Positions 22,487 to 37,254 of a DNA stretch of 38,279 nucleotides are shown here, one piece after another. The stretch is from Oscillibacter sp. Its GTDB lineage: Bacteria > Bacillota > Clostridia > Oscillospirales > Oscillospiraceae. The notes below the pieces were generated by a model. That model did no database searches and was not told where the DNA came from. It saw only the letters and a list, made by a program, of their open reading frames with translations. A program made the translations under genes and the position numbers. Every line of letters starts with the position of its first letter. Within the stretch, counting starts at the first letter, position 1. The stretch covers positions 1-38,279 of the forward strand of contig JAAWGR010000022.1 of NCBI GenBank assembly GCA_022795445.1. The letters run 5' to 3'.

Positions 22487-22543
22487 TTTACAGCGGTTTC
22501 CAATTGCACCCTGTGGAGGTTGACAAAAATGAGGTGTGAAAGT

Positions 22544-23017
22544 ATGAAAGTAGTCATCGGTTCCGACAAATCTGGCTTCCCGCTGAAGGAAGCGATCAAA
22601 GCCCATCTGATCGAAAAAGGCCATGAGGTCGAAGATTGCGGTACGTTGGACCTGGAAAACGTAAAGCCCTTTTTCGTCACGGCCGCAGCCCTGGCTCCCA
22701 AGGTTCAGAGCGGCGAGTTCGAGAAGGGAATCCTCATCTGCGGCACTGGCGCGGGCATGGAAATCGTAGCCAACAAGTACAAGGGCGTTTACGCCGTCCT
22801 CTGCAATGACATTTATGACGCCCGGATGTGCCGCGCCATCAACGACGCCAATGTTATGACCATGGGCGGCTGGAAGATCGCCCCCGAGGTCGGCTGCGAG
22901 ATGGCCGATACTTTCCTCGCAACCGATTTTACCCAGGGCTTGGAAGAGTGGCGGCAGGAGTTCCTGAAGGGCGCCAAGGAAAAGGTCAAGGCCCTGGAAG
23001 AAGAAATCTACGGTTGA
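22544..23017 (+). CDS. RpiB-family sugar isomerase, probable 4-deoxy-4-sulfoerythrose isomerase (SqwI type)
   Basis: The protein has 157 residues and the RpiB/LacAB fold: MKVVIGSDKSGFPLKEAIKA, then ILICGTGAGMEIVANKYKG with the catalytic Cys retained, then INDANVMTMGGW. Normal ribose 5-phosphate isomerase B has His in GxDH and His before the ND pair (H10 and H99 in E. coli, as I recall); here these are Lys9 and Ile. One of the two C-terminal arginines that bind phosphate also appears lost. The pocket is therefore probably made for a non-phosphorylated substrate. In the transketolase sulfoglycolysis pathway an RpiB relative isomerises sulfoerythrose to sulfoerythrulose, which fits the transketolase genes next to it. 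I chose ATG 22544 as the family start (GAGGTG seven bases upstream); ATG 22529 with GGAGG nine bases upstream is possible. Confidence 0.8.
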   Translation: MKVVIGSDKSGFPLKEAIKAHLIEKGHEVEDCGTLDLENVKPFFVTAAALAPKVQSGEFEKGILICGTGAGMEIVANKYKGVYAVLCNDIYDARMCRAINDANVMTMGGWKIAPEVGCEMADTFLATDFTQGLEEWRQEFLKGAKEKVKALEEEIYG

Positions 23018-23039
23018 TCACCGAAAGGAAGTGCAGAAC

Positions 23040-23870
23040 GTGAACGAAGTCAAGAAGTTTGCCGTGGACATCCGTAAGGAAACCATCAAGTGCATCGGCA
23101 ACCTGGGCGTTGGCCATATCGGCGGCGCACTCTCCATCGTGGACGTACTGGCGGTTTTGTACGGCGGCGAGATGAACATCGACCCCAAGAATCCTAAGAA
23201 GGATGACCGGGACATGCTGATTGTTTCCAAGGGCCATGCCGGCCCCGCCGTGTATGCCACCTTGGCCCTCAAGGGCTATTTCCCCATGGAAATGCTGGAT
23301 ACCCTGAACAAGCCCGGCACCAAGCTCCCCAGCCACTGCGATATGAACCGCACCCCCGGCATTGACATGACCACCGGGTCTCTGGGCCAGGGCGCAAGCT
23401 CCGCTATGGGTATCGCCTGCGCGAACCGGCTGAAGGGCTATCAAAACTATACATACCTTATCCTGGGCGACGGCGAGATTGAAGAAGGCCAGGTTTGGGA
23501 AGCGGCCATGTTTGCGGGCGCGAAAAAGCTGTCCAACGTGATCGCTTTCGTGGACTACAACAAGTGCCAGATCGACAACTATGTACAGGAGCTGTGCAGC
23601 CTGGGCGATGTAGCCGCGAAGTTCGAGAGCTTCGGCTGGTTCGCCCAGAACGTGGAAGACGGCAACGACGTCGAGCAGATCTCCGCCGCCATCGCTAAGG
23701 CCAAGGCCGAAGCGGGCGACCGTCCCTCCGTCATCGTGCTTAACACCGTGAAGGGCAAGGGATACAGCAAGATCGAAGGCTCTCTGGGCTCCCACAATAT
23801 GCCGGTAACGGCCGAGATGGTGGAAGAAGCTCTGGCCGAGCTGGATAAGGCCGCCGCGGCCCTCGCCTGA
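23040..23870 (+). CDS. Transketolase N-terminal subunit, probable sulfofructose transketolase (SqwG type)
   Basis: The protein has 276 residues and holds the ThDP pyrophosphate-binding half. GVGHIGGALSIVDVLAVLYG and VSKGHAGPAVYATLALKGYF contain substrate- and cofactor-binding His residues. The ThDP motif is GDGEIEEGQVWEAA (GDG at 143-145), ending in DYNKCQ about 30 residues later. The start is a GTG at 23040 with AAGGAAG eight bases upstream; the GTG three codons earlier overlaps that site. With the next gene it forms a split transketolase. In context it should transfer C2 units from sulfofructose and sulfoerythrulose to glyceraldehyde 3-phosphate, giving xylulose 5-phosphate. Confidence 0.88.
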   Translation: MNEVKKFAVDIRKETIKCIGNLGVGHIGGALSIVDVLAVLYGGEMNIDPKNPKKDDRDMLIVSKGHAGPAVYATLALKGYFPMEMLDTLNKPGTKLPSHCDMNRTPGIDMTTGSLGQGASSAMGIACANRLKGYQNYTYLILGDGEIEEGQVWEAAMFAGAKKLSNVIAFVDYNKCQIDNYVQELCSLGDVAAKFESFGWFAQNVEDGNDVEQISAAIAKAKAEAGDRPSVIVLNTVKGKGYSKIEGSLGSHNMPVTAEMVEEALAELDKAAAALA

Positions 23871-23909
23871 GCGCCTGCGGACCGAATTTTGACGAGGAGG
23901 ATAAATAGC

Positions 23910-24878
23910 ATGAGCGTAAAAGTGGCTGAGCATCATGCGGTGAGCGATAAAGAGCTGCGGAAGGAATTCTGCGACACCCTGCTGGCGATGGCGGCAGAGG
24001 ACGAGAAGGTCGTCGTCCTGGACGCAGACCTGATGAACGCGGCGGGCACGAAGCCTTTCCAGGCGGCATATCCGGAGCGCACGTTTGACTGCGGCGTCCA
24101 GGAAGCCAACATGATCGGCGTGGCGGCGGGCCTTTCTTCCCGCGGTTTCATTCCCTTCACACACACCTTTGGCCCCTTTGCGGCCCGGCGCGCCTGCGAC
24201 CAGATTTTTATGTCCTGCGCCTACGCGAAGCAGAACGTGAAGGTGGTTGGCTCGGACCCCGGCGTCACCGCCGCCCTGAACGGCGGCACCCACATGCCCT
24301 TTGAGGACATGGGCATCATGAGCACCATCCCCGAGATGACGGTTGTGGAGCCCTGCGATTTGGTTTCTGTGGGCAAGGTGACCCGCCTGGCGAAGGAAAC
24401 CTACGGCTGCTGGTACATCCGCCTGCACCGCAAGGGTGCGCCGAACATCTATGAGGAAGGCACCGACTTCACGGTCGGCAAGGCCAACCTGCTGAAGGAC
24501 GGCAAGGATGTTACCATCATCGCCATGGGCTACCTGGTGGCCGAGGCGCTGAAAGCTGCGGAGGCATTGGAAAAAGAGGGAATTTCTGCCCGCGTGCTGG
24601 ACATGTGGTGCCTGAAGCCCTTGGACGAGGAAGCAGTAATTGCCGCCGCGAAGGAAACCGGTGCGATTGTCACCGCGGAGAACCACAATATCAAGAATGG
24701 CCTGGGTTCTGCCGTTGCCTCCGCGCTGGCTCTGAACTGCCCCACCGTCTTAGAGATGGTCGGCGTGCAGGACGAGTTCGGTGAAGTCGGCCCTGTGCCG
24801 TATCTGGCGGAACGCTTCAAGCTGACGGCGGACGAAATCGTCGCCAAGGCGAAGAAAGCAGTCGCCCGCAAGGCGTAA
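23910..24878 (+). CDS. Transketolase C-terminal subunit, probable sulfofructose transketolase (SqwH type)
   Basis: The protein has 322 residues with the pyrimidine-binding domain (FDCGVQEANMIGVAAGL, catalytic Glu in VQEAN) and the C-terminal transketolase domain (VTIIAMGYLVAEALKAAEAL). The typical family reading at the first motif is GIAEQN; here the Gln is Ala. The segment AALNGGTHMPFEDMGIM replaces the GEDGPTHQ usual in transketolases. The start at 23910 has GAGGAGG nine bases upstream. It is 39 bases after the N-terminal subunit and must act as a complex with it. Confidence 0.88.
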   Translation: MSVKVAEHHAVSDKELRKEFCDTLLAMAAEDEKVVVLDADLMNAAGTKPFQAAYPERTFDCGVQEANMIGVAAGLSSRGFIPFTHTFGPFAARRACDQIFMSCAYAKQNVKVVGSDPGVTAALNGGTHMPFEDMGIMSTIPEMTVVEPCDLVSVGKVTRLAKETYGCWYIRLHRKGAPNIYEEGTDFTVGKANLLKDGKDVTIIAMGYLVAEALKAAEALEKEGISARVLDMWCLKPLDEEAVIAAAKETGAIVTAENHNIKNGLGSAVASALALNCPTVLEMVGVQDEFGEVGPVPYLAERFKLTADEIVAKAKKAVARKA

Positions 24879-24897
24879 CAGAAGGAGGAAAGCAGCT

Positions 24898-26019
24898 ATG
24901 TGGGAGTATTTGCAACCGGTAACCATCCGGTTTGGCGAGGGCGTTGTCGGCGAGCTGCAAAAGGCCGCGGAAAGCCTGGGCTGCAAGCGCGGCCTGCTGG
25001 TAAGCGACCCGTTCTTCATGAAAAGCGGGCTTGCAGACCGCATCCTGGAATCCAGCGGCGGCGTGCTGGTTGGCGCCTACAGCGAGATTTCCCCCAATCC
25101 GGAGACCGTTGAGGTAGACGCATGTGCGGTAAAGATTCGGGCGGAGAAGATCGATTTTCTGGTGGCCCTGGGCGGCGGCAGCGCATTGGACTGCGCTAAA
25201 GCAGCGGGTTCCATCTGCTTCACTGAGGATTCTATCCGGAAGTACCATGGTACCGGCGTGGCGATGCCCCAGGAGCATCTGCCCCTGATCGCCATTCCCA
25301 CGACGGCGGGTACCGGCAGCGAAGTGACCTGCGTCTCTGTTCTCAGCGACCACGAGCTGGGCAAGAAGGGTCCCATCGTGTCCAACGCTTTTTATCCGGC
25401 GCTGGCTTTGGTGGACCCGGAACTGACCTATACCCTGCCCCCCTATATGACCGCCAGCACCGGCATTGATGTTTTGTGCCATGCAGTGGAGGGCTTCTGG
25501 AGCAAGGGCCACCAGCCCATCTGCGACGCGTTGGCGCTCCACGCCAGCAAGATCGTCTTCCAGTATCTGCGCACCGCCTGTAAGGAGCCGGATAATAAAG
25601 AGGCCCGCGCCAAGATGGCAGAGGCTTCCGTGATTGCAGGTCTGGCGTTTACCCTGCCCAAGACCACCAGCTCCCACGCGTGCTCCTTCCCTCTGACGAA
25701 CCTGTTCCACATCCCCCACGGCGAGGCCTGCGGTCTGACCCTGGACTTCTTTGCCCGCGTCAACGCGGATGCAGAGCCGAAGGATGGACGCATCCACAAT
25801 TTCGCCCGAGAGCTTGGCTTCCAAGATATGTACGATATGGCGGACGCCATCCTCCAGCTCAAGAAGGACCTCGGTCTGCGGACGGATTTGAAAGACTTCC
25901 ACCTGACCGATGAACAGGTGGCGGAACTGGTAAAGACGAGCCATCACCCCAATATGCTGAACAACCCCGTGGACATCACCGACGAGATTCTCGACAAGAT
26001 GTACCAGTCTATGCGCTGA
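24898..26019 (+). CDS. Iron-containing alcohol dehydrogenase, probable sulfoacetaldehyde reductase (SqwF type)
   Basis: The protein has 373 residues, usual for group III alcohol dehydrogenases. GGGSALDCAKAAG binds NAD(H). The metal ligands are D191, H195, H260 and H274 (in GIDVLCHAVEG, SSHACSF, HIPHGEA). Position 264, usually a His near the nicotinamide (H267 in E. coli FucO, by matching spacing), is Phe here. In context it should reduce the sulfoacetaldehyde released by the second transketolase step to isethionate, re-oxidising NADH. The strong AGGAGGA ribosome binding site supports ATG 24898. Other small-aldehyde reductases of this family cannot be excluded. Confidence 0.82.
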   Translation: MWEYLQPVTIRFGEGVVGELQKAAESLGCKRGLLVSDPFFMKSGLADRILESSGGVLVGAYSEISPNPETVEVDACAVKIRAEKIDFLVALGGGSALDCAKAAGSICFTEDSIRKYHGTGVAMPQEHLPLIAIPTTAGTGSEVTCVSVLSDHELGKKGPIVSNAFYPALALVDPELTYTLPPYMTASTGIDVLCHAVEGFWSKGHQPICDALALHASKIVFQYLRTACKEPDNKEARAKMAEASVIAGLAFTLPKTTSSHACSFPLTNLFHIPHGEACGLTLDFFARVNADAEPKDGRIHNFARELGFQDMYDMADAILQLKKDLGLRTDLKDFHLTDEQVAELVKTSHHPNMLNNPVDITDEILDKMYQSMR

Positions 26020-26033
26020 AACGGGTGGATACG

Positions 26034-26699
26034 ATGATTGAACGGCTGAATCAACGCAACGATGTGCGTATCCTGCCAGTCACAGACGCAGCGTTTGCCC
26101 CCTATGGGCGGATCGTCAGCGGCTATGACTTCAGTGGATTGGTTTCCTATATGGAGCAGCATACGGAAATCCCCGAGACGGGCAACGTTTACGTTGCCTC
26201 CGTCCCGGAGATGGAAGCCGACCCTGTGGCTGCCGGGCTGAAAACCGTCTTTTACGGCGGCATGGACATCGAAATCGGCTACTGCAACGGCAGGAACACC
26301 ACCTATAACGGGTTTGAATACCACAAAGGCAGCGAGATCAACATCGCTGTGACCGACTTCATGCTGGTCCTGGGCCACACCTGGCAGATCAAAGACCTCA
26401 CCTTTAAAGTGGAGGATGCACAGGTGTTCTTCGTGGAGAAGGGTACCGCCATTGAGATGTACCAGACGACGCTGCACCTGTCCCCCTGCCGGGTGACGGA
26501 TGAAGGCTTTAAGGGCGTCGTCATCCTGCCCCGGGGTACCAACACCCCCCTGCCGGAAAAGCACCTTACCGGCGACCCGGAGAGCCGTTTGCTTTTGCAG
26601 CGGAACAAATGGGTTTTGGCCCATCCGGAACGGGAGCCGCTGATCAAGCAGGGCGCACATCCCGGCGTGCTGGGGGAGAATAAGGAATTGTACTATTGA
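26034..26699 (+). CDS. DUF4867 family protein, function unknown
   Basis: The protein has 221 residues and matches my memory of DUF4867, a cupin-like family of Firmicutes sugar clusters. TYNGFEYHKGSEINIAVTDF and VLGHTWQIKDLTF look like a double-stranded beta-helix with His and Glu (YHKGSE) as possible metal ligands, and VFFVEKGTAIEMYQTTLHLSP follows. It might be an epimerase, mutarotase or isomerase of the sulfosugar, or an ancillary binding protein; no known step of the pathway needs it. The start is ATG 26034 with GGGTGG five bases upstream. It lies between the dehydrogenase and the GH31 gene, inside the operon. Confidence 0.75.
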   Translation: MIERLNQRNDVRILPVTDAAFAPYGRIVSGYDFSGLVSYMEQHTEIPETGNVYVASVPEMEADPVAAGLKTVFYGGMDIEIGYCNGRNTTYNGFEYHKGSEINIAVTDFMLVLGHTWQIKDLTFKVEDAQVFFVEKGTAIEMYQTTLHLSPCRVTDEGFKGVVILPRGTNTPLPEKHLTGDPESRLLLQRNKWVLAHPEREPLIKQGAHPGVLGENKELYY

Positions 26700-26736
26700 G
26701 TAACCAAAAATTACAACAGAAAGGAGGCGAGGCGCC

Positions 26737-28743
26737 ATGAAATTTCAAAGGAACGGTTCCGCTTGGACTTTGGAGCATGACGGGAAGATTCTCCTGGAAT
26801 GCGGGGAATCCGCCCCGCTCCTGTATGTAGGCTGCGGCAAGGAAACGGTGGACATGTACCGCGGCAATTACAAGATTGAGGATTACGTTGTGGAACGCCG
26901 TCCGCTGGCAGTGAAGGACATCCAGGAGACGGAAACGGGCGCAGAGCTGGATTTCGGAGAGCTGGCAATCAGCCTCTCCATTGAGGGTGACTGCGCTGTC
27001 TTGGCTTTCCAGCAGAAGAACCCGGCCATAAACCGGTTCTGGTTCCGCGTGAAAGCCGAGACAGACGAGTTCTGCTACGGCTGCGGCGAGCAGATGTCGT
27101 ATTTCAACCTGCGGGGCCGCCGCTTCCCTCTTTGGACGTCCGAGCCGGGCGTGGGCCGGGACAAGACCACCTATGTGACCTGGCGTGCAGATGTGGAAGA
27201 CCGGGCAGGGGGCGATTACTTCAACACCTATTTCCCCCAGCCTACTTACCTCTCCAGCCGCCATTATTACCTGCATGTGGATTCCACCGCCTATGCCGAT
27301 TTTGACTTTCGGAATCCGGATTTCCATGAGCTGCAAATCTGGGAGGTGCCCGCTTCCATCCGCATCGAAGCGGCCCCCACATTTGTTGAGCTCTTGAGGA
27401 AGGAAAGCGCATTTTTCGGCCGTCAGCCGGAACTGCCGGATTGGATTTACAACGGTCTGATCATCGGCGTCCAGGGCGGCAACGAGCGTTCCTTCGGCCT
27501 GATGGAAAAAACGCTGGAGCATGGGATCAAGGTCTCCGGCGTCTGGTGCCAGGACTGGTGCGGCAAACGCATCACCTCCTTTGGCAAACGCTTGCAGTGG
27601 GACTGGCGAGCCAATGAGGAAATGTACCCCGGTCTTGCAAATGAGATCGAAAAGCTGCATCAGCGGGGGATCAAATTCCTGGGTTACATCAATCCTTACC
27701 TCGTCAACGACGGCGAACTGTACCGGCAGGGCAAGGAGGCGGATGTGTTCGCCAAGAAGGCCGACGGCAGCGAATATCTGGTAGACTTCGGCGAGTTCGA
27801 CTGTGCCATCCCCGACCTGACGGACACTAAGGCATACGAGTGGTTCAAAAACGAGGTCATCAAGAAGCACAGCCTGGACATCGGCATTGACGGCTGGATG
27901 GCCGATTTCGGCGAATACCTGCCTACGGATGACCTGGTACTGTCCAGCGGAAAGTCTCCCATGGTGGAACATAACCACTGGCCCGCCCTCTGGGCAAAGT
28001 GCAACTATGACGCCCTGGCGGAAACCGGAAAACTGGGTGAAGTGGTCTACTTCATGCGGGCCGGCGGGACCGGGAACCAGAAGTACTGCACGCTGATGTG
28101 GGAGGGCGACCAGTCGGTAGATTTTTCCATCCATGACGGTTTGGCGTCGGTCGTCTGCGGCGCGCTGAGCCTGGGCATGACCGGCTGCGGTCTGACCCAT
28201 AGTGATATTGGCGGTTACACCTCCCAGTATGGCAATAAGCGTACAAAAGAAGTGTTCCTCCGCTGGGCGGAAATGGCAGCCTTTACGGCAGTCATGCGCA
28301 CCCATGAGTGCAACCGTCCGGAAGAAAACTTCCAGTATTATGACGACGAGGATTGTATGGTCCGTTTGGCCCGGCTGGTGGATGTATACACCATGCTGAA
28401 GCCCTACATCAAGGCACTGGTGCATGAAAACTGTACAGAGGGCATTCCCGTTCAGCGCCCGCTGTTCCTCCACAACGAGGACGACCCGCGCTGCTACGAA
28501 ATCCAATACCAGTACCTGCTGGGACCGGATCTGCTGGCAGCCCCGGTGTATCTGGCAGAGCAGACGGAATGGCCGGTTTACCTGCCGGAGGGCGAATGGG
28601 TCCACCTATGGACCGGCAAGACCTACGGCAAAGGCGACCACACCGTTCCGGCGGCCCTGGGTGACACGCCGGTATTCTATAAGAAGGATTCCAAGTATGC
28701 GGAGCTGTTTGCGGAAATTGGCAAGAAGCATGGCCGGGCATAA
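26737..28743 (+). CDS. GH31 glycoside hydrolase, probable sulfoquinovosidase (YihQ type)
   Basis: The protein has 668 residues and no signal peptide, so it acts in the cytoplasm. The nucleophile is D390 (GWMADFGEYLP) and the acid/base D458 (WEGDQSVDF). The sulfonate-recognising residues of YihQ are R301, W304 and Y508 with D405 and D472, as I recall. Here R285 and W288 (FGKRLQW) and Y494 (HSDIGGYTS) have nearly the same spacing: 105 versus 104 from Arg to nucleophile, 68 versus 67 between the two Asp, and 36 versus 36 to Tyr. It should release sulfoquinovose from sulfoquinovosyl glycerol. The start at 26737 follows AGGAGGCGAGG. It is the best evidence for the operon's substrate. Confidence 0.9.
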   Translation: MKFQRNGSAWTLEHDGKILLECGESAPLLYVGCGKETVDMYRGNYKIEDYVVERRPLAVKDIQETETGAELDFGELAISLSIEGDCAVLAFQQKNPAINRFWFRVKAETDEFCYGCGEQMSYFNLRGRRFPLWTSEPGVGRDKTTYVTWRADVEDRAGGDYFNTYFPQPTYLSSRHYYLHVDSTAYADFDFRNPDFHELQIWEVPASIRIEAAPTFVELLRKESAFFGRQPELPDWIYNGLIIGVQGGNERSFGLMEKTLEHGIKVSGVWCQDWCGKRITSFGKRLQWDWRANEEMYPGLANEIEKLHQRGIKFLGYINPYLVNDGELYRQGKEADVFAKKADGSEYLVDFGEFDCAIPDLTDTKAYEWFKNEVIKKHSLDIGIDGWMADFGEYLPTDDLVLSSGKSPMVEHNHWPALWAKCNYDALAETGKLGEVVYFMRAGGTGNQKYCTLMWEGDQSVDFSIHDGLASVVCGALSLGMTGCGLTHSDIGGYTSQYGNKRTKEVFLRWAEMAAFTAVMRTHECNRPEENFQYYDDEDCMVRLARLVDVYTMLKPYIKALVHENCTEGIPVQRPLFLHNEDDPRCYEIQYQYLLGPDLLAAPVYLAEQTEWPVYLPEGEWVHLWTGKTYGKGDHTVPAALGDTPVFYKKDSKYAELFAEIGKKHGRA

Positions 28744-28781
28744 ACCAGGCAGAATGCCTGCGGCGGCGTAGGGGGAGAAGC

Positions 28782-29534
28782 ATGATGGTGAACGACGTCC
28801 TGTTTCTGCTGGTCATTTTGGGGGCCAACATCATCCAAGGGATTACCGGTTTTGCCGGAACGATCCTGGCGATGTCCCCCAGCCTGCTGCTGGTGGGGTA
28901 TCCGGTGGCAAAGCCGGTGCTGAACGTGTTGGCTCTGTTGTCCGGTTTTTATGTGTTCATCGGGAACACGAAAAATGTGAACTGGAAAGAGCTGTGGAAA
29001 ATCGTGGCCTGGATGGCGGCGGGGATTGCGGCCGGTATCTTCATCAAGAGTCTGTTCTCTGGACAAGAAGGCATCCTGCAAAAGCTTTTGGGCGTGTTTG
29101 TGGTGCTCCTGGCGGTCCAAGGTATCTATAAGATGTTCCGGCCGAAAAAGAACGGCGAACCGGAGGAGGAGCAGAAACCGGTATCTCCGGCAACGGTCCT
29201 GTTCCTGCCCCTGGCGGGCATCGTCCACGGTATTTTTGTTTCCGGCGGGCCGCTGTTGGTGAGCTACCTGACGAAAAAGAATCTCGATAAGGTAACGTTC
29301 CGGGCGACCATCTCTACGGTTTGGGTGTTTTTGAACACCTTAGTATTATTTGATGACATCCGTGCGGGGCTGTGGAACCCCTCCCTGCTGAAGATCCAAT
29401 TGATCGCGATCCCCTTTCTTCTGGCAGGAATGTTCATCGGAAGCAAACTGTATGCGAGAATGAGCCAGCAGCTGTTTATGAAGATCACCTATGTGCTGTT
29501 GTTCATTTCTGGTATATCCCTGTTGGTCAAGTGA
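28782..29534 (+). CDS. TSUP (TauE/SafE) permease, probable sulfonate exporter
   Basis: The protein has 250 residues and about eight membrane spans, the full TSUP length. ANIIQGITGFAGTILAMS at the N-terminus and LPLAGIVHGIFVSGGPLLVSYL in the second half are the two repeats (the second quoted by its key residues GGPLLV). In sulfoglycolytic operons such permeases usually export the C2 or C3 sulfonate product; here isethionate is expected. The start at 28782 follows GGGGGAG; ATG 28785 is equally possible. It lies between the hydrolase and the uptake system. Confidence 0.85.
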   Translation: MMVNDVLFLLVILGANIIQGITGFAGTILAMSPSLLLVGYPVAKPVLNVLALLSGFYVFIGNTKNVNWKELWKIVAWMAAGIAAGIFIKSLFSGQEGILQKLLGVFVVLLAVQGIYKMFRPKKNGEPEEEQKPVSPATVLFLPLAGIVHGIFVSGGPLLVSYLTKKNLDKVTFRATISTVWVFLNTLVLFDDIRAGLWNPSLLKIQLIAIPFLLAGMFIGSKLYARMSQQLFMKITYVLLFISGISLLVK

Positions 29535-29564
29535 CCGGCAACAAATTTAAAGGAGGATCCTGAG

Positions 29565-30662
29565 ATGAAGAAGAAAACACTAGCGCTTGTTCTGACCCTG
29601 GCCATGACGTTGGCCCTGCTCCTGTCCGCCTGCGGCGGCGACTCTGGCTCTGGCAGCTCCGCTGGCGGCGACACTACCGGCGGCGACACCCAGACCGAAG
29701 GCGAAGACACCGGCGGCAATCCCAACGCCAGCGGCGGCACCGTGAAGATCGTCTGCGGTTACGGCGTCGGCGGCACGGCGGACGCCATCGCCCGCAAGTA
29801 TGCCCTGGTTGCTAACCGCCTGCACTCTGACTACAATTTCATCGTTGAGAACATGACCGGCGGCGACGGCTTCGCGGCGGCGGACTACTACACCGACCTC
29901 GACCCCTCCACCCACGAGCTGCTGATCTACGGCTACGGCCTGATCTACCGCCATGACGAGGGCAAGACCTATGGTACAGAAGTCGTTGACTTCGATCGGA
30001 ATGATATCCTGCCCATCGGCTGCATTGATGACCGTACCAACATTGTGTATGCCAAGCCTGGTGTTACCCTGGCCGATGTGATTGCCAAGGCGAAGGAAGG
30101 CACGCTGAAAATGTCCGGCGGCAACCCCCTCTCCGAGCTGCATCTGGCCCTTGGCTCCCTGGCTGCCCTGGAAGGCGGCAAGGTCATGGTCGTCCCCTAT
30201 GACGGCGGCGCTGCCCAGAAGAAGGGCTTGATGGACGATGAGGTCGATGTCTTCGTCGGCACCACCCAGGCTGCCCAGGACGAGGTCGAAGCAGGCACTC
30301 TGATCCCCATCCTTGCTTTCTCTGACCAGCCCTTCGAAGGCTTTGTCGGTCCCGACGGCCCCATCTCTGTTCCCACCGTTGCAGGCGACTCCAAGGCTCC
30401 CGAACTGGACCCCAATATTGATTTCTCCGGCTGCGTCCTGCGTTCCGGCGGCTTCATCGCTACCCGCACTGGCGCGGACCAGGCATGGGTTGACGAGCTG
30501 ACCCAGATCACCAAGGACGTTTGGAATGATCCTGAATTCTCTGACTGGATTGCTGAAGTTCTGCTGAACCGGCATGAGGTCTATGGCGCGGACGCCCAGG
30601 CTGAAGTGGAAGAAGCCGCCGCGAAGTGCCTGACCGCTTATGAGAACCTCAGCGCTGGCTGA
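29565..30662 (+). CDS. Tripartite tricarboxylate-type transporter, substrate-binding lipoprotein
   Basis: The protein has 365 residues. The signal peptide ends in the lipobox LLSAC, so the mature protein is a lipoprotein with Cys23 at its N-terminus, followed by a Gly/Ser/Asp/Thr linker. The mature part (VKIVCGYGVGGTADAIARKY, then NYNFIVEN-like YNFIVENMTGGDGFAAADYY) is a TctC/Bug-type binding protein. TctC proteins bind organic anions; here a sulfonated sugar such as SQ or sulfoquinovosyl glycerol is inferred from context. The start at 29565 has AAGGAGGA. Genes for the two membrane subunits follow. Confidence 0.88.
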   Translation: MKKKTLALVLTLAMTLALLLSACGGDSGSGSSAGGDTTGGDTQTEGEDTGGNPNASGGTVKIVCGYGVGGTADAIARKYALVANRLHSDYNFIVENMTGGDGFAAADYYTDLDPSTHELLIYGYGLIYRHDEGKTYGTEVVDFDRNDILPIGCIDDRTNIVYAKPGVTLADVIAKAKEGTLKMSGGNPLSELHLALGSLAALEGGKVMVVPYDGGAAQKKGLMDDEVDVFVGTTQAAQDEVEAGTLIPILAFSDQPFEGFVGPDGPISVPTVAGDSKAPELDPNIDFSGCVLRSGGFIATRTGADQAWVDELTQITKDVWNDPEFSDWIAEVLLNRHEVYGADAQAEVEEAAAKCLTAYENLSAG

Positions 30663-30678
30663 TTTGAACCCCCGCACC

Positions 30679-30701
30679 GGAGGTGCGCATTGCGCACCTC
30701 C
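30679..30701 (+). other. Stable hairpin between the binding protein and the membrane subunits
   Basis: GGAGGTGCGC and GCGCACCTCC form a perfect 10-base-pair stem with an ATT loop, 16 bases behind the binding-protein stop and with no T run. Such hairpins often protect the upstream mRNA so that the binding protein is made in excess. Confidence 0.6.
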
Positions 30702-30733
30702 AGGAAATTGAACGGCAGAGGGAGATTTTTTCT

Positions 30734-31204
30734 ATGAAGAAAATCAAAATCAAAACCAACCTCTGGTCAGGTATTGTTATGGGCGTGCTCAGCATTATCC
30801 TGCTGATGCTCCTGCCCAGTCAGGTGCGGGTCCCCGCATACGACTCCGGTGCGCCCAGCCCCCGGATTATCCCTGGAATCTGCCTGGTCGGTATGCTGAT
30901 CTGCGCCGCGGCCCTGATCATCCAGAGCCTGGTGTTCAAGAAAGAAAAGATATTTGAGTTCGACTGGGCTGTGGAAAAGCCCTGCATCCTCCTGATCCTG
31001 ATGCTGTGCGTGTACACGGCCATGATTATCTATCTTGGTTTTGTCATTGCCTCCGTCATCATTTTCCCCCTGATGCTCGTCTATTCCGGCGAACGCAAGC
31101 CCCCGATTTACATTTTCACCATTGCGGCAGGCATCGGCATTTTCTTCCTGTTTAAGTTTGTATTCCATGTGTCGCTGCCGACACTTCCGTTTTTAGGAGG
31201 TTAA
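30734..31204 (+). CDS. Tripartite tricarboxylate-type transporter, small membrane subunit
   Basis: The protein has 156 residues with four hydrophobic segments, the TctB pattern: TNLWSGIVMGVLSIILLML first, then PRIIPGICLVGMLICAAALI, then two more spans to the C-terminus. It forms the membrane part with the large subunit. The start at 30734 (MKKIKIKTN) has GAGGGAG upstream; a longer start at 30683 would overlap the hairpin. Confidence 0.88.
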   Translation: MKKIKIKTNLWSGIVMGVLSIILLMLLPSQVRVPAYDSGAPSPRIIPGICLVGMLICAAALIIQSLVFKKEKIFEFDWAVEKPCILLILMLCVYTAMIIYLGFVIASVIIFPLMLVYSGERKPPIYIFTIAAGIGIFFLFKFVFHVSLPTLPFLGG

Positions 31205-31208
31205 CGCT

Positions 31209-32861
31209 ATGGGAGACATTCAAATGATTATCCAGGCGGTTGGCCAAGTATTTACCCCCCTGAACCTGATCATGATTTTCGGCGGTCTGGTTCTGGGCAT
31301 GATCGTGGGATGCATCCCCGGTCTGAGCGTTACGCTGGGTATTATCCTGCTGCTGCCTCTGACTTATTCTTTCCCCTCGGCGGATACGGCCATCATCGCC
31401 CTGCTGGCGGTGTACGTGGGCGGCATGTACGGCGGCTCCATCAGCGCCATCACGCTGAACACCCCCGGTACTAACTCCGCCATCGCAACCACCTTCGACG
31501 GCTATCCCCTGGCGAAACAGGGTAAGGTGAAAAAGGCGCTGGATACTTCCCTGTTTGCCTCCACCTTCGGCGGCCTGATGTCTGCCCTGCTCCTGCTGAT
31601 CTGCGCTTCCTTCATCACGAAGCTGGTAGCAAATTTCGCCTCGGTTGAGTATTTCTCCATGGCAATTCTGGGCATTTCCCTGATCGCCGGCGTCAGCGGC
31701 GACAGCCTGCCCAAAGGCGTCCTCTCTGGACTGTTGGGCATCTTCATTGCCTCCATCGGCATGGACGCCGTTACCGGCGTAACCAGGTTCTCCTTTGGCA
31801 TGAGCACGCTGAAGTTCGGCATCGACATGCTGCCTGCCATGATCGCCCTCATCGCCCTGACCCAGGTGGTACAGAAGCTGCGGGATTTCGTCATCAGCCA
31901 CGGCAAGCTGGACGACGCCAACCAGATCGACCGGGAGGGCCTCACTGGCAAGGAAATGAAATCCATTCTCCCCGCCTGCACCCGTTCCTCTGTCATCGCC
32001 TCTATCCTGGGCGCTATGCCCGGCGTCGGCGGCGGCGTGGCACAGTTTATGTGCTATAACGAGTGCCGCCGAGCCTCCAAGCACCCTGAAAAGTTTGGCA
32101 AAGGCAGCCTGGAAGGCATCGCCGCGGCAGAAGCCAGCAACAACGCCGTCGTTGGCTCCGCCATGATTCCCCTGCTGACCCTGGGCATCCCTGGCGACGG
32201 CGTAACCGCGCTGCTCCTGGGCGCGTTCATTCTCCACGGCATCCAGCCTGGACCCACCATGTTCACCAAGCAGGGTGTCATTGCTTACTCCATCATCCTA
32301 GGCTGCCTGGTGGCCAATGTCTTCCTGTATCCCATCGGCCTGCTGCTGACCCGCGCAGTGGCCAAGATCATCCAGGTTCGCTACACCTACCTGGCACCCG
32401 TAATCATCATGTTCTGCTTTGCCGGTGCGTTCGCCGCTACTGGCAATACCAAGGAACTGATCCTCGTTGCAGCGATTCTGGTGTTCAGCTATGTGCTGGT
32501 TGTGCTGGATATCTCCTCCACACCCTTGATGCTGGGTATGATCCTGGCGGACATCATGGAAATGAACTTTGTTACCAGCATGATGAGCTATGACCGGGAC
32601 TACCTCATTTTCTTCAAGCGTCCCATCTCCTGCGTGATCCTGATCTTGACCGTTATCCTGGTGATTTCCATGCTGCGGATCAACAAGAAGGTGGAGGCTT
32701 TGAACAAAGCCCAGCTGGAAGAGATGCAGAGAGAGCATAGCGAAGCCGGCAAGCCTGCGGAGGAACCCCGGGAAAAAGGTACCGACTGGGCCGGCTTGGA
32801 AAAGCTGGAAGAGGCGGAAGAAAAGCCTATCGAAAAGCTATCCGACAAACCAAAACCTTAA
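31209..32861 (+). CDS. Tripartite tricarboxylate-type transporter, large membrane subunit
   Basis: The protein has 550 residues with about 11-12 membrane spans. The TctA signature is clear: GMIVGCIPGLSVTLGIILLL, then YVGGMYGGSISAITLNTPGT, and a second copy around AAEASNNAVVGSAMIPLLTLGIPGDG (key residues EASNNA and GIPG). The C-terminal 50 residues are charged and cytoplasmic, with many Glu and Lys. It follows the small subunit by four bases. With the binding lipoprotein it forms a cation-driven uptake system for an anion; the operon suggests a sulfosugar. Confidence 0.92.
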   Translation: MGDIQMIIQAVGQVFTPLNLIMIFGGLVLGMIVGCIPGLSVTLGIILLLPLTYSFPSADTAIIALLAVYVGGMYGGSISAITLNTPGTNSAIATTFDGYPLAKQGKVKKALDTSLFASTFGGLMSALLLLICASFITKLVANFASVEYFSMAILGISLIAGVSGDSLPKGVLSGLLGIFIASIGMDAVTGVTRFSFGMSTLKFGIDMLPAMIALIALTQVVQKLRDFVISHGKLDDANQIDREGLTGKEMKSILPACTRSSVIASILGAMPGVGGGVAQFMCYNECRRASKHPEKFGKGSLEGIAAAEASNNAVVGSAMIPLLTLGIPGDGVTALLLGAFILHGIQPGPTMFTKQGVIAYSIILGCLVANVFLYPIGLLLTRAVAKIIQVRYTYLAPVIIMFCFAGAFAATGNTKELILVAAILVFSYVLVVLDISSTPLMLGMILADIMEMNFVTSMMSYDRDYLIFFKRPISCVILILTVILVISMLRINKKVEALNKAQLEEMQREHSEAGKPAEEPREKGTDWAGLEKLEEAEEKPIEKLSDKPKP

Positions 32862-32924
32862 ACCAAGATTTGCGGCCGCTCCGGAAAAGCCCCGGGCGGC
32901 CGCTCGAAAAAGGAGATAAGAGCC

Positions 32925-34262
32925 ATGAGTTTTCAGGTTGCCTATGTACCCATTGGCGTGGGTACCTTCCACCTGGAGAGCGCCCAGGCAGAGTTTGATA
33001 AGTCTGTCCAGCTCCTTCAGTCTCTGACGGAGGACGGGATCTACCCCGATAAAATGTTGTTGACGCTGGATGATCTGACAGCTTTCCTGGACAGCATTCA
33101 CCCCAACTTGATCGTCTTGCAGAATATCACTTTTGCAAACGCCGCCTATGCCACGGAAGTCCTCAAACGGTTTGATTGTCCCATCTTGCTCTGGACCTTG
33201 CGGGAGCCGGTAATCGACGGCGGCCGCCTGCGGCTGAACTCCCTGACAGGAGCCTATTCCGCCGCCAACGCCATCCGGGCCTTCCGGGAGGGCGAGTTTG
33301 AGTATCTGTTCGGTGCCCCCGGCGACGAGGAGACCCGGCAGGAAATCGGCGCGGCCATCCGGGCAGCGAAGATCAAATACGACCTGCGGCACTTGAAACT
33401 GGCCTCCATCGGCCATACGCCCCAGGGCTTCGGCTTTGGCCGGGCGCTGGATTCGGAAATCGCCAGCAAGTTCGGCGTAACGCTGGAATCCATTGAGGTC
33501 CGGGAGCTGATCGACCGGGCGAAGGGTTACAGCGACGAGGAGTGCGCCGGAGACCTGGAGGAAGCTAAGAAGATTCTCGTTGGACTGGATCAGACGCCGG
33601 AGAAGAACGTCAAGGATTTTGCGCGGCTCTATAAGGCATATAAAGCCTATATCCAGGAGAACAACATCGGGGCCATTTCCTCCCGCTGCTGGCCGGATCT
33701 GTTTACCTCTTACGGCACCCCGGTCTGTGCGGTCCTGTCCCTGCTGAACAATGGCAAGACCGTCGCTAGCTGTGAATCCGATACCTACGGCGCACTGTCT
33801 ATGTATATCGGTTCCCAGCTCTCCGGGAAGGCCGCTTTCTTCGGCGATCCCGTCTCCATGGACGAGAAGGAAAACACCGTCACTTTCTGGCACTGCGGTA
33901 TGGCCGCCTGCTCCCTGGCCCGGGAGGATACCGGCGCACAGGTGGGTGTGCATCCCAATCGGAAGCTTGGCCCCGCTATGGACTTCGGCTGCAAGGCCAA
34001 CGGTGAGGCAACCATCTTCCGCGTAGGCCGCCGGCCGGACGGCAAGTTCCGCTTCTTCATCGCGGGCGGCGAGGCGCTGGATAAACCCAAACAGTTCTGC
34101 GGCACATCCGTCGTCGTGAAGCCGGAGGGCAGCGCGAAGGAATTGGTGTACAACAGCGTAAAAGACGGCTGGGAACCCCACTTTGTGGTGGTTTATGCCG
34201 ACGTCAAGAACGAACTTACCAAACTGGCCCACATGCTGGGCATGGAAGTCTGCTACTATTGA
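32925..34262 (+). CDS. L-fucose/arabinose isomerase-like protein, probable sulfoquinovose isomerase (SqvD type)
   Basis: The protein has 445 residues. The two N-terminal Rossmann-like domains end at about residue 270. The C-terminal isomerase domain carries the metal site: ISSRCWPDL, CESDTYGALSMYI and TVTFWHCGMAA, with Glu, Asp and His in the arrangement of FucI/AraA-like enzymes. Canonical FucI has about 590 residues, so this is the shorter group. As I recall, the Firmicutes SQ isomerases that convert sulfoquinovose to sulfofructose belong to this kind of protein. The start at 32925 follows AAAGGAG. It completes the first step of the pathway. Confidence 0.82.
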   Translation: MSFQVAYVPIGVGTFHLESAQAEFDKSVQLLQSLTEDGIYPDKMLLTLDDLTAFLDSIHPNLIVLQNITFANAAYATEVLKRFDCPILLWTLREPVIDGGRLRLNSLTGAYSAANAIRAFREGEFEYLFGAPGDEETRQEIGAAIRAAKIKYDLRHLKLASIGHTPQGFGFGRALDSEIASKFGVTLESIEVRELIDRAKGYSDEECAGDLEEAKKILVGLDQTPEKNVKDFARLYKAYKAYIQENNIGAISSRCWPDLFTSYGTPVCAVLSLLNNGKTVASCESDTYGALSMYIGSQLSGKAAFFGDPVSMDEKENTVTFWHCGMAACSLAREDTGAQVGVHPNRKLGPAMDFGCKANGEATIFRVGRRPDGKFRFFIAGGEALDKPKQFCGTSVVVKPEGSAKELVYNSVKDGWEPHFVVVYADVKNELTKLAHMLGMEVCYY

Positions 34263-34321
34263 GCAAGTCCTGACGCAGGCGCGGACCCGCGTCCTGCAAA
34301 ATTATAAGGGAGGTCCTTGTT

Positions 34322-35458
34322 ATGAGAAAAGCCTTTATCTGCCCGACCAAGTACGTCCAGGGTGAGGACGAACTGCTGAACCTGGGCTACTTCGTCAAGA
34401 CCTTTGGCGATTCCGCCCTGCTGATCGCGCTGGACAGCGACGTGGAGCGCGTCAAGGAAAAGCTGGACAAAACTTCCGAAAAATTCGGTGTGACCTTCGT
34501 CCCCAGCAACTTCCATGGCCAGTGCTCCCGCCAGGAAGTGGAGCGCCTGCGGAAGGTCGCTGAGGAAAACAAGTGCGCCTGTATCGTAGGTATGGGCGGC
34601 GGCAAGGCCATCGACACCTCCAAATGCGTGGGTCAAGGTGACGGCGTTATCATCGTTCCCACCATTGCAGCTACGGACGCTCCTACCAGCCACTCCGCCG
34701 TGCTCTACACCGAAGACGGTGAGTTTGATGACTATGCCTACTTCAAGCAGAGTCCCAGCGTTGTCCTGGTCGATACCACGGTTGTTGCCAGTGCACCCAC
34801 CCGTTTCCTGGTCTCCGGCATGGGCGACGCCCTGTCTACCTACTTTGAGGCCCGGGCCAACGTCCGCTCCTTCTCCCGCGTCAACGCCAGTCTGCCCTGC
34901 GGTGCCCGCGAGGGTGTCTGCGCTCCCGGCATGGGCACCAATGCCGCTTTCGCTCTGGCAACCCAGTGCTACCGCACCTTGCTGGAAGACGGCGTAAAGG
35001 CCAAGCAGGCTTGCGATATGAACATCGTCACCCCGGCGCTGGAGAATATCATCGAAGCCAACATCCTCCTCTCCGGCCTGGGCTTTGAGAGCGGTGGCCT
35101 GGCCGCGGCCCACGGCATCGTGGACGGCCTGACCCTCCTGCCCGGCACCCACAAGTACATGCATGGTGAAGAAGTTGCTTTCGGTACCCTTTGCCATATG
35201 ATGCTGGAGAACGCCCCCACCGAGGAGCTGGAGGAAGTTTTGGACTTCTGTCTGTCCGTCGGCCTGCCGGTGTGCCTGAAGGACCTTGGCGTCGACAGTG
35301 TGTCTGATGAAGAGCTCAAGGCTGTAGCCGAGAAGGCCAGCATCCCCGAAGAATCCACTCACGCCATGCCCTTCCCTGTCAATGCGCAGACCGTGGCCGC
35401 TGCCATTGTCGCCGCTGATAAGATTGGCAGCGCCTACAAACAGGAGCATATGGCATGA
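34322..35458 (+). CDS. Glycerol dehydrogenase (GldA) family protein
   Basis: The protein has 378 residues. NAD-binding GMGGGKAIDTSK and PTIAATDAPTSHSAVLYT are GldA hallmarks. The zinc ligands lie in GMGDALSTYFEA (Asp), GGLAAAHGI (His) and MHGEEVAFGTL (His). It oxidises glycerol to dihydroxyacetone, or a related diol. The stop overlaps the start of the dihydroxyacetone kinase gene, so the two are coupled and likely successive enzymes. A role as a second aldehyde reductase cannot be excluded. The start at 34322 has GGGAGG. Confidence 0.88.
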   Translation: MRKAFICPTKYVQGEDELLNLGYFVKTFGDSALLIALDSDVERVKEKLDKTSEKFGVTFVPSNFHGQCSRQEVERLRKVAEENKCACIVGMGGGKAIDTSKCVGQGDGVIIVPTIAATDAPTSHSAVLYTEDGEFDDYAYFKQSPSVVLVDTTVVASAPTRFLVSGMGDALSTYFEARANVRSFSRVNASLPCGAREGVCAPGMGTNAAFALATQCYRTLLEDGVKAKQACDMNIVTPALENIIEANILLSGLGFESGGLAAAHGIVDGLTLLPGTHKYMHGEEVAFGTLCHMMLENAPTEELEEVLDFCLSVGLPVCLKDLGVDSVSDEELKAVAEKASIPEESTHAMPFPVNAQTVAAAIVAADKIGSAYKQEHMA

Positions 35459-37206
35459 AAAAAATTATAAACGATCCCTTGACCGTCGTCCGGGAAATGT
35501 GTGCGGGCATCGTGGAAGCCCATCCGGAACTGACTATGGATACCAAGTACAAGGTCATTCACAAGAAACAGCTGAACAAAAGCAAAGTAACCCTCATCAG
35601 CGGCGGCGGCAGCGGCCACGAGCCTGCCCATGCCGGATTTGTGGGCAAAGGAATGCTGGATGCGGCCGTGTGCGGCGACGTATTTGCCTCTCCGTCGCAG
35701 ATCCAGGTATATAAGGCGATCCAGCAGACTGCCAGCGATGCTGGAACCCTGCTGATTATCAAGAACTACAGCGGCGATATCATGAACTTCCGTAACGCGG
35801 CCTTCCTGGCCCAGGAAGATGGCATCAATGTGGACTATGTGAAGGTTGATGACGACATTGCCGTTAAGGACAGCCTTTACACCGTGGGCCGCCGGGGCGT
35901 AGCGGGTACTGTATTTGTTCACAAGATTGCCGGCGCTGCCGCCGAGGCGGGCAAGAGCCTTCCGGAAGTCAAAGCCATTGCTGAAAAAGCTGCCGCTAAT
36001 GTTAAGAGCATTGGTTTTGCGTTCACTTCCTGCACCGTTCCTGCTAAGGGTACTCCGACCTTCGACATCGGCGAGGGTGAAATGGAATATGGCGTAGGCA
36101 TTCACGGTGAACCGGGCATCCGCCGTGAAGCGGTGGCAACGGCCAATGAACTGGCGTCCCGTATGGTGGAGTCTCTCAGCCAGGAGTTGGAACTCAAAGG
36201 CCAGGAGCGGATTGCCGTCCTGGTGAACGGGTTCGGCGCGACGCCTTTAATGGAACTGTACCTGTTCAACCATGCAGTGACGAAAGAATTAGCGAAAAAG
36301 GGCGTAACCATTGCGCGGGTCTTTGTGGGAAATTATATGACCAGCATTGACATGGCGGGTGCATCTTTGTCTATCCTGAAGCTGGACGAGGAGTTGGAAG
36401 GTTACCTCAACGCCTCCAGCGATGCTCCTGCATTCAAGGTCAGCGGTCCAGTAGCCGCAGCGGAGACGGTAAATGTTGATCAGACTATCCAGGAAGTGGA
36501 AGCCAACTACGGTATTGAGACTCCAGCAGACTATGCCGTGGTGGGGGACGCTCTGACGCTGGAAAATGTCATGTACATGGTAGATGCGATGTGTGAATCC
36601 TCCATCCGGAACGAGGTTCCGTTCTGTGAGCTGGACTCCCACGCTGGCGACGGTGATTTTGGCATGAGTATAGCTAAAGGCTTCCGTCAGCTCAAAGCAG
36701 AGTGGAAGGATATCATTGCGGCGGAGAACCTGGACATTGCCAGCTTCCTCAATGCTTGCTCCCTGGTGATCATGGAGTATTGCGGCGGCGCATCCGGCCC
36801 GATTTGGGGCTCTGCATTCCGTGCGGCTGCCCGGAGCGCCCGTGGCAAGGCGGCATTGTCTGTCAGCGATTTTGCAGAGCTGATGCAGGCTGCGGTAAGT
36901 GGTATTCAGGCGACTGGCGAGCGCTCCTTCGGACGCGGCGCGGTAGTGGGTGATAAGACCCTCATCGATGCCCTTGTTCCCTGTGCAGATTCCTGGACGG
37001 AGAGCGCTAAGAATGGTAAATCCCTCAAGGATGCCTTTGCGGCTGGTGCGGAAGCTGCCATGGCAGGCGCGAAGAGTACGGAGAAGATTGCTGCCCGGAT
37101 GGGCCGTGCAGGCACGGTAGGCGAGCGCAGCATTGGCTGGGCTGACGCAGGTGCATATGGTCTGGCAGTAATCTTTGGCGATGTATCCAATGGTCTGAAA
37201 TACTAA
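35455..37206 (+). CDS. Dihydroxyacetone kinase, DhaK-DhaL fusion (ATP-dependent)
   Basis: The protein has 583 residues. The N-terminal DhaK domain (about 1-330) has LISGGGSGHEPAHAGFVGKG and the substrate-binding His in GVGIHGEPGIRRE. The C-terminal DhaL domain (about 365-583) has the nucleotide- and Mg-binding HAGDGDFGMSIAKG and YCGGASGPIWGSAF. The single-chain fusion is the ATP-dependent kind, as in Citrobacter and yeast, in contrast to the PEP-dependent three-part system. It makes DHAP from dihydroxyacetone. Together with the glycerol dehydrogenase it would turn the glycerol released by the sulfoquinovosidase into triose phosphate. It is the last gene of the operon. Confidence 0.93.
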   Translation: MKKIINDPLTVVREMCAGIVEAHPELTMDTKYKVIHKKQLNKSKVTLISGGGSGHEPAHAGFVGKGMLDAAVCGDVFASPSQIQVYKAIQQTASDAGTLLIIKNYSGDIMNFRNAAFLAQEDGINVDYVKVDDDIAVKDSLYTVGRRGVAGTVFVHKIAGAAAEAGKSLPEVKAIAEKAAANVKSIGFAFTSCTVPAKGTPTFDIGEGEMEYGVGIHGEPGIRREAVATANELASRMVESLSQELELKGQERIAVLVNGFGATPLMELYLFNHAVTKELAKKGVTIARVFVGNYMTSIDMAGASLSILKLDEELEGYLNASSDAPAFKVSGPVAAAETVNVDQTIQEVEANYGIETPADYAVVGDALTLENVMYMVDAMCESSIRNEVPFCELDSHAGDGDFGMSIAKGFRQLKAEWKDIIAAENLDIASFLNACSLVIMEYCGGASGPIWGSAFRAAARSARGKAALSVSDFAELMQAAVSGIQATGERSFGRGAVVGDKTLIDALVPCADSWTESAKNGKSLKDAFAAGAEAAMAGAKSTEKIAARMGRAGTVGERSIGWADAGAYGLAVIFGDVSNGLKY

Positions 37207-37217: not shown

Positions 37218-37254
37218 AAAAGCGTCAGGGAAATCTTTCCCTGACGCTTTTTTG
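37218..37254. terminator. Terminator of the sulfosugar operon
   Basis: AAAGCGTCAGGGAAA and TTTCCCTGACGCTTT form a perfect 15-base-pair stem with a two-base TC centre, followed by further T on the plus strand. The A run on the left also allows termination from the minus strand. Confidence 0.93.

Follow-up and report, generated by a model that had tools for sequence, protein, structure and literature searches.

The window, a stretch of 38,279 nucleotides (contig JAAWGR010000022.1, assembly GCA_022795445.1) from an Oscillibacter sp., carries a compact run of plus-strand genes encoding a GH31 glycosidase, a split transketolase, an Fe-alcohol dehydrogenase, transport proteins and a glycerol dehydrogenase with a dihydroxyacetone kinase. 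A preliminary description, made from the letters and their open reading frames, had listed 13 genes in named families between positions 22544 and 37206; Pfam and NCBIfam profiles recovered all 13 frames and all of those families (Table 1). Intergenic gaps range from −4 to 71 bases, a purine-rich stretch resembling a ribosome site precedes most starts, and in three genes a start was preferred over that of the longest frame (sqwH at about 23910, sqvB at 26025 or 26034, tctB at about 30734). The operon very probably serves the use of sulfoquinovosyl glycerol (SQGro) and sulfoquinovose (SQ) through a sulfo-transketolase (sulfo-TK) pathway, with an SqvB/SqvD backbone and a transketolase (TK) cassette of separate lineage.

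Comparison loci, designated by L numbers, were collected with an alignment scan for SqvD, which matched at least 592 stretches; 506 of these were confirmed, and the best 80 form the named loci L043-L122, to which 20 regions of same-family genomes were added. Gene content was called with probes for the window genes and for 15 further families. Absences are uncertain because many contigs end inside the cluster, and the 80-locus counts are not independent because the loci are related. The order sqvB-yihQ-TSUP-tctC-tctB-tctA-sqvD was found in 11 of the 80 named loci, and this recurrence places the gene set far from chance.

Table 1. Features of the operon and its upstream region (window coordinates)
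Feature	Position	Strand	Evidence or remark
ROK-family regulator, candidate repressor of the operon	20984..22237	−	Divergent; Pfam ROK 101 bits
Perfect 9-bp inverted repeat, 6-base spacer, candidate operator	22310..22333		Divergent intergenic region
Promoter-like site TTGACT-17-TATTAT	22438..22466	+	Consensus match only
sqwI-like, candidate 4-deoxy-4-sulfoerythrose isomerase (RpiB/LacAB family)	22544..23017	+	Pfam 146 bits; SDKSGF and LExWR signature
sqwG-like, transketolase N-terminal subunit	23031..23870	+	Pfam Transketolase_N
sqwH-like, transketolase C-terminal subunit	23910..24878	+	Start adjusted; Pfam Transket_pyr and Transketolase_C
sqwF-like, sulfoacetaldehyde reductase of TauF type (Fe-alcohol dehydrogenase)	24898..26019	+	540 bits to 6jko, next chain 180
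sqvB/sftX (DUF4867), metal-cupin, proposed to open the SQ/SF ring or act as a mutarotase	26025..26699	+	Pfam 251.7 bits
yihQ/sftG, GH31 sulfoquinovosidase	26737..28743	+	951.9 bits, cut-off 553 (NF007746)
TSUP (TauE/SafE), sulfonate exporter candidate	28782..29534	+	Pfam TauE 99 bits
tctC, solute-binding lipoprotein, tripartite tricarboxylate transporter, SQ-operon subfamily	29565..30662	+	Pfam 28 bits, cut-off 27
tctB, small membrane subunit	30734..31204	+	Pfam TctB 58 bits, cut-off 29.1
tctA, large membrane subunit	31209..32861	+	Pfam TctA 444 bits, cut-off 28.9
sqvD-like, SQ isomerase, FucI/AraA-related	32925..34262	+	NCBIfam SftI model 429.8 bits, below cut-off 700
gldA, glycerol dehydrogenase	34322..35458	+	NF006941 503 bits, cut-off 336
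dhaK-dhaL fusion, dihydroxyacetone kinase	35455..37206	+	Pfam Dak1 426 and Dak2 144 bits; 4-base overlap with gldA
Intrinsic-terminator-like hairpin	37218..37251	+	15 pairs, 7 G-C; six T at end, four possibly pairing within the stem

Enzymes of the predicted pathway

What is shown here is the identity of the genes, the conservation of their active-site residues, their synteny and their trees. The GH31 protein scores far above the cut-off of NF007746 (PRK10426), a model which we take to be that of YihQ and whose database description reads alpha-glucosidase. All seven YihQ positions checked are kept in it, namely D405 and the six that we take as further active-site positions (Q262, Q288, R301, W304, Y508 and D472). 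D405 is catalytic in YihQ, and 6pnr, the best solved relative in a search of the Protein Data Bank (PDB), is the functional sulfoquinovosidase SftG of E. rectale (PMC11968277). The protein is accordingly placed, by homology, as a sulfoquinovosidase of the YihQ orthologous group. Similarly, the DUF4867 protein is assigned as SqvB/SftX from its 52% identity to 9gyy (209 aligned columns), with the metal ligands E97, H99, E103 and H150 kept; a nuclear magnetic resonance assay of SftX for mutarotation was negative (PMC11968277). SqvD is a clear relative of the isomerase in other SQ operons and of the clostridial type, being 60-77% identical to the SqvD of 14 same-family genomes; the other six of the 20 further genomes with a match, one partial (64%) and five distant (27-30%), are not included in this range. 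A PDB search with SqvD returned six arabinose isomerases, all of them weak matches.

In the TK cassette, the SqwI candidate carries motifs shared with the SqwI of other sulfo-TK clusters. Among 19 SqwI proteins from loci holding sqwG, the window included, SDKSGF is present in 18 (the exception, L073, has SDGSGF) and LExWR in all 19. In solved RpiB proteins of two kinds aligned to the window SqwI, the start reads DHxxF and a GGRHxxR stretch is present instead, and DHAG is kept in the RpiB-like match of L098, a locus without sqwG. These altered motifs argue against an ordinary pentose-phosphate isomerase and mark the candidate SqwI as distinct from RpiB. The two following genes are assigned, from their Pfam domains and their grouping with the SqwGHI of other SQ clusters, to a predicted split transketolase acting on 6-deoxy-6-sulfofructose (SF), SqwG plus SqwH; the N-terminal subunit is 76-85% identical to those of L024 and L050.

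The dehydrogenase is closest to the 6JKO/6JKP protein, the sulfoacetaldehyde reductase BkTauF of Bifidobacterium kashiwanohense (PMC6616044). The two share 233 of 370 residues (63%), with D192, F252, T257, H261, F265 and H275 kept and the metal ligand Q196 replaced by H, a swap found in a number of BkTauF homologs; the T257A and F265A variants of BkTauF lost almost all activity (PMC6616044). In a 27-row tree, with long branches elsewhere flagged, the proteins of the window, L024, L050 and BkTauF form one group at 100/100. Thirteen SqwF-like rows, a subset of those available, were aligned with that of the window: identity is 77-86% for L050 and L024, 49-59% for L146, L147 and L149, and 36-41% for eight Limivicinus-like and bifurcated clusters (both described below). 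The best chain for the SqwF of L036 is also 6jko, at 262 bits. The TauF group, rather than SarD, is the assignment that fits this predicted reductase, and the identity to TauF together with the kept active-site residues makes isethionate the likely product of the pathway.

As a separate observation, TauF-type dehydrogenases 49-55% identical to that of the window lie beside a split transketolase pair in L147 (8645-11588), L148 (6658-9703) and L149 (7920-11354). No SqvD, YihQ or SqwI was seen near them within the stretch examined, and these genes possibly belong to another sulfonate route or to a stray cassette.

From these assignments we infer the activities, transport direction, product, regulation and NADH match of the system. 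SQGro or SQ would enter through TctCBA without ATP, and YihQ would cleave SQGro to SQ and glycerol. SqvB would aid ring opening and SqvD would isomerise SQ to SF, from which SqwGH would pass first one and then a second C2 unit to glyceraldehyde 3-phosphate, with the C4 sulfosugar isomerised by SqwI between the two transfers; the products would be two xylulose 5-phosphate and sulfoacetaldehyde. The TauF-type SqwF would then convert sulfoacetaldehyde with NADH to isethionate, to be exported by TSUP. GldA and DhaKL would turn glycerol into dihydroxyacetone phosphate and, judged from the reactions, the one NADH made by GldA would match the one spent by SqwF; the triose phosphate of this branch could also prime the transketolase. 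The sulfo-TK pathway advanced in the preliminary description is supported, since there is a candidate for every step and each candidate other than the isomerase passed a specific sequence test.

Two alternatives concern the enzymes themselves. Split transketolases and the RpiB and Fe-alcohol dehydrogenase families also serve pentose pathways, so families alone do not decide against an ordinary sugar operon with a GH31 alpha-glucosidase or xylosidase and a pentose or apiose/apulose transketolase route. This option is nevertheless highly improbable: the best solved relatives of the GH31 protein are sulfoquinovosidases and the active-site residues checked are kept, the SqwI motifs are changed, the dehydrogenase is TauF-like and, DhaKL aside, there is no sugar kinase among the 13 proteins. 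On this evidence the apiose or pentose version was rejected, and in the searches made apiose/apulose or pentose enzymes, which the preliminary description had named as the outcome that would contradict it, did not come up as best matches. A sulfo-TK pathway could also end in sulfoacetate instead of isethionate, as in the known SqwD/SqwKL variant (PMC11659671). Only a very slight chance is given to such an ending here, as a TauF-type reductase is present among the 13 proteins and no CoA-acylating aldehyde dehydrogenase or CoA ligase is found among them, in a search confined to these 13. Nor was an SF transaldolase (SftT/SqvA) found among the 13 proteins of the proposed isethionate-forming operon.

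Lineages of the backbone and the cassette

Among the 80 named loci, a transaldolase core was seen in 53, a transketolase in three, both in three and neither in 21. Four pairs of regions appear to be the same contigs (L023/L048, L024/L055, L136/L058 and L137/L087), and the trees include only one region of each pair; the 80-locus counts refer to the named set only. The rows of the SqvB tree (45 of 70 sequences) and the SqvD tree (54 of 100) were picked by hand so as to include the TK loci and a range of others. Limivicinus-like is a working label for twelve same-family or named TK clusters (L025-L028, L030-L036 and L090), and bifurcated clusters are those of the TK/transaldolase (TK/TAL) kind.

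In the SqvB tree, a quick one, the window falls in a starred group of 33 rows, of which 30 are of the sulfo-transaldolase (sulfo-TAL) type, two are TK (the window and L050) and one is of unknown type. This group lies apart from six Limivicinus-like TK rows and three bifurcated rows; four operons holding gldA-dhaKL adjoin the window, in a grouping that is unstarred at 89. The SqvD tree places the window in a starred group of 22 rows (17 TAL, three TK and two unknown). A single clade of all pure-TK rows was rejected by the approximately unbiased test for SqvB (p-AU 0.0063, 8 rows) and for SqvD (p-AU 0.017, 14 rows), as was a clade of pure-TK plus bifurcated rows (p-AU 8e-5 and 2e-5, respectively). 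For the SqvD test two long rows, L038 and L138, were removed. Gene content defined the groups, but the trees had been viewed before testing.

The joined SqwG, SqwH and SqwI sequences gave a different picture. In a careful tree of 19 rows, which excludes L037 (without sqwI) and L146-L149, the window, L024 and L050 group at 100/100 and adjoin four bifurcated clusters, apart from the twelve Limivicinus-like ones. Because the SqvB/SqvD trees and this tree group the window differently, backbone and cassette have different histories. The backbone groups, by these phylogenies, with transaldolase-type SQ operons, and the TK cassette with its TauF-type reductase is placed as a separate, third sulfo-TK lineage. 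In the gene maps, the cassette stands where relatives have the transaldolase and its reductase. Isozymes are described as often interchanged between SQ pathways (PMC9594981).

A further sulfo-TK cluster was observed at positions 1672-15312 of L146, with a distant (28%) type of SqvD, an SqwF of 59% identity, a TSUP protein and an ABC importer.

Transport and the glycerol branch

The tctA, tctB and tctC genes together are identified, from their families, as a tripartite tricarboxylate transporter (TTT). An AlphaFold model of TctC built with 16 sequences has a mean pLDDT of 82.6, with low values at residues 1-56, and in a structure search with it ranks 1-17 were taken as TctC/Bug solute-binding proteins, a family that we presume for some of the matched entries. 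Two other TctC proteins of the same genome, on other contigs, lie much nearer to the general family (139 and 123 bits against a cut-off of 27). A search for relatives of the window TctC, scoring at most five candidates per genome, covered 394 genomes of the order (E ≤1e-20) and, at E ≤1e-15, 391 genomes of the class; besides its own genome, one was found in the order set and two in the class set (L136-L138), and all three lie in SQ operons. Across the 80 loci, exactly one of four importer classes was seen in 62 (GPH in 29, TctCBA in 21, SSF in six and ABC in six), two classes in one (ABC plus GPH) and none in 17. TctCBA was counted here by tctA; tctC itself is present in 18 of the 21, some contigs ending there.

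TctCBA probably imports SQ or SQGro, and the presence of a solute-binding subunit favours uptake. A TTT system, SlcGFH, is described as a putative sulfolactate importer in Taurinivorans, in a paper that mentions SQ only in a reference, as far as its available text goes (PMC10507020); this proposal makes SQ uptake by a TTT more plausible and leaves other sulfonates open. A link between TctCBA and SQ uptake was not found in the main text of PMC13219744, PMC9594981, PMC11968277, PMC11659671, PMC12890257 or PMC12330013, a scope too narrow to prove absence. The published scheme for Enterocloster clostridioformis YL32, a strain reported to grow on SQ, names an importer, SftA, without a locus tag and its enzymes with tags (PMC12330013); another strain of this species, AGR2157 (L064), has tctCBA in its SQ operon. 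One locus, L138, combines TctCBA with two transaldolase types, yihQ, sqvD and an sqwF-like gene, and TctCBA may also serve bifurcated clusters.

As for export, TSUP was seen in 40 of the 80 loci, EamA in 14, DASS in eight, EamA plus TSUP in one and none in 17. The DASS/CitMHS-type transporter of eight loci never occurs together with TSUP (41 loci) in this set, and it may be an alternative sulfonate exporter.

In the glycerol branch, GldA is 73-76% identical to that of four sulfo-TAL operons (L059, L060, L066 and L069), in which gldA-dhaKL lies between TSUP and sqvD; these operons also hold yihQ, and their importers are SSF or GPH. TctCBA and gldA occur together in the map of the window only, among 105 maps. 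An FGGY kinase is present in nine other named loci, five of which also have a GlpA-like oxidase. A glycerol dehydrogenase and a dihydroxyacetone (DHA) kinase of the Faecalicatena TK/TAL cluster are induced by SQ and were proposed to use the glycerol of SQGro (PMC11659671), and a glycerol kinase has been described in an SQ context in E. rectale (PMC11968277).

Two further alternatives accept the SQ pathway and reassign one of its accessory parts. TctCBA might carry another acid or sulfonate or a pathway product, SQ entering through a transporter encoded elsewhere. Carboxylates are the best-known ligands of TctC proteins and are bound in several of the nearest solved folds, the Taurinivorans TTT is a putative sulfolactate importer (PMC10507020), and L087 and L098 hold TctCBA together with a DASS/CitMHS-type transporter. 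Against this, TctCBA occupies the slot that GPH, SSF or ABC fills elsewhere among SQ operons (two importer classes coincide in one locus of 63), its close TctC relatives were found in SQ operons only, a solute-binding protein indicates uptake, and the genome, searched with a GPH probe but not for SSF or ABC types, gave no relative beyond one at 25% identity. Another cargo is therefore unlikely, although it keeps a real share of the probability. GldA-DhaKL, for its part, might serve dihydroxyacetone or glycerol from other routes and share only the promoter, and dihydroxyacetone from aldol cleavage of fructose 6-phosphate was also proposed in Faecalicatena (PMC11659671). This seems improbable given the position of the pair in the four yihQ-holding operons, the FGGY kinase of nine other loci, and the lack of a match to SftT-type transaldolase in the genome with one probe.

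Several points weigh against the proposed sulfo-TK operon with TctCBA as its importer. SqvD scores below the cut-off of the SftI equivalog NF048012 (429.8 against 700 bits), and the dehydrogenase below that of the SarD model NF050025 (214.4 against 700 bits). The genome search for an SftT-type transaldolase had no positive control in the same search, and the SqwF, SqwG, SqwH and SqwI of Clostridium sp. MSTE9, a sulfo-TK strain considered below, were set beside those of the window by published description only. TctC barely exceeds its Pfam cut-off, two of its three relatives are apparently the same contigs as the named loci L058 and L087, and the one-importer pattern rests on related loci and chosen probes. 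The SftI cut-off may not have been set with clostridial isomerases in view, since one of these and the Bacillus enzyme are 32% identical (PMC11659671).

A broader scenario can be offered tentatively, with somewhat less than even confidence. In this separately assembled sulfo-TK system, a TK cassette with a TauF-type reductase, a type known from taurine metabolism, would have replaced the transaldolase cassette on a sulfo-TAL backbone, TctCBA would be a widespread and hitherto unassigned SQ/SQGro importer class, and GldA and SqwF would close the NADH balance, each SQGro yielding one isethionate and leaving seven carbons to the cell. Should TctCBA be the importer, the missing uptake step would be named in 21 of the 80 SqvD loci sampled, about a quarter, among them that of an E. 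clostridioformis strain. Since the cassette is swapped on a shared backbone, neither the YihQ gene nor the operon backbone would predict whether 2,3-dihydroxypropane-1-sulfonate (DHPS) or isethionate is produced. SQ ranks among the most abundant organosulfur compounds; the isethionate derived from it can feed sulfite-releasing bacteria that form hydrogen sulfide (PMC12890257, PMC13219744).

Flanks, host and closest known systems

Upstream, the divergent ROK gene, found in 66 of the 80 named loci, stands beside an asparaginase gene that is also divergent from the operon. The promoter at 22438 and the terminator at 37218 of the preliminary description are present as a promoter-like site and a strong hairpin, in scans with a high chance background. 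A consensus scan of 20000-38279 gave 15 promoter sites against 9.3 expected in shuffles. Among 16 terminator-like sites listed, against a chance expectation of 17.6, the hairpin has the longest stem; it appears in the scan on the minus strand only, and the six T at its plus-strand end are seen in the sequence. Given this background, both signals count mainly by position. An Rfam search of the window gave no matches. Elsewhere in the window, away from the operon, a 137-residue minus-strand frame (12039-12452) matches only positions 2-112 of the 237-long TauE/SafE profile and looks partial, and at 13986-16786 (minus strand) a frame resembling a pyridoxal phosphate decarboxylase overlaps a radical-SAM/SPASM frame by a few bases.

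Mis-binning was considered. All 20 other genomes of the genus gave a match to the ComEC of this contig, which spans the greater part or the whole of the protein at 52-63% in 19 of them and is a short piece at 51% in one; the asparaginase was matched in 13 of the 20 (nine at 72-80%, one of them partial, and four at 29-35%). With these matches, the contig fits the genus. A close SqvD was found in none of the 20 genomes, two of which gave weak partial matches, and there was no match at 1e-20 in five same-genus genomes, two of them also in the 20. Neither ROK nor operon genes were found within up to 1.5 kb on either side of seven same-genus asparaginase loci. The operon is accessory; sulfo-TK is mentioned for six mouse Oscillibacter metagenome-assembled genomes (PMC12330013).

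The preliminary description had raised the idea that the full gene set might be undescribed. The pathway itself, DUF4867 and the glycerol pair are already known in SQ clusters; DUF4867 and GldA-DhaKL as newcomers were ruled out, both being in published clusters (PMC9594981, PMC11968277, PMC11659671). The part that stands is the combination with TctCBA: within the available text of the literature searched, the TctCBA assignment, a TauF-type reductase within a sulfo-TK cassette and this gene combination were not found described.

Among known systems, the sulfo-TK of Clostridium sp. MSTE9 (SqvD, SqwGH, SqwI, SqwF, SqwE, YihQ and SqvB) has the enzyme set, intermediates and product that are predicted for the window (PMC9594981, PMC12890257), and most clusters of its type hold DUF4867/SqvB (PMC9594981). 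Their importer is most likely of the ABC class (PMC11659671), whereas the window has TctCBA and a TauF-type reductase. BkTauF, which shares its active-site residues with the window SqwF apart from Q196, has a possible role in taurine nitrogen assimilation (PMC6616044). The bifurcated cluster of Faecalicatena sp. DSM22707 resembles the window in its TK set and its glycerol dehydrogenase/DHA kinase and differs in two transaldolase candidates, an NAD-dependent sulfoquinovosidase and an ABC importer, in place of which the window has no transaldolase, a GH31 sulfoquinovosidase and TctCBA (PMC11659671).

The sulfo-TK clusters of Ca. Limivicinus, Caproiciproducens and Sphaerochaetaceae form isethionate, as is predicted for the window; they are transcribed, and isethionate was measured for one Caproiciproducens strain (PMC13219744). 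The twelve Limivicinus-like clusters compared here belong to a cassette lineage separate from that of the window, and no TctCBA was seen in them. The backbone sqvB-yihQ-TSUP-tctCBA-sqvD is instead that of the sulfo-TAL operons of E. clostridioformis, Clostridium symbiosum and F. prausnitzii (L064, L052 and L058; PMC12330013). These operons are led by a transaldolase and a sulfolactaldehyde reductase, with DHPS as product (measured for E. clostridioformis YL32; PMC12330013), whereas the window has sqwI-sqwG-sqwH-sqwF in that place.

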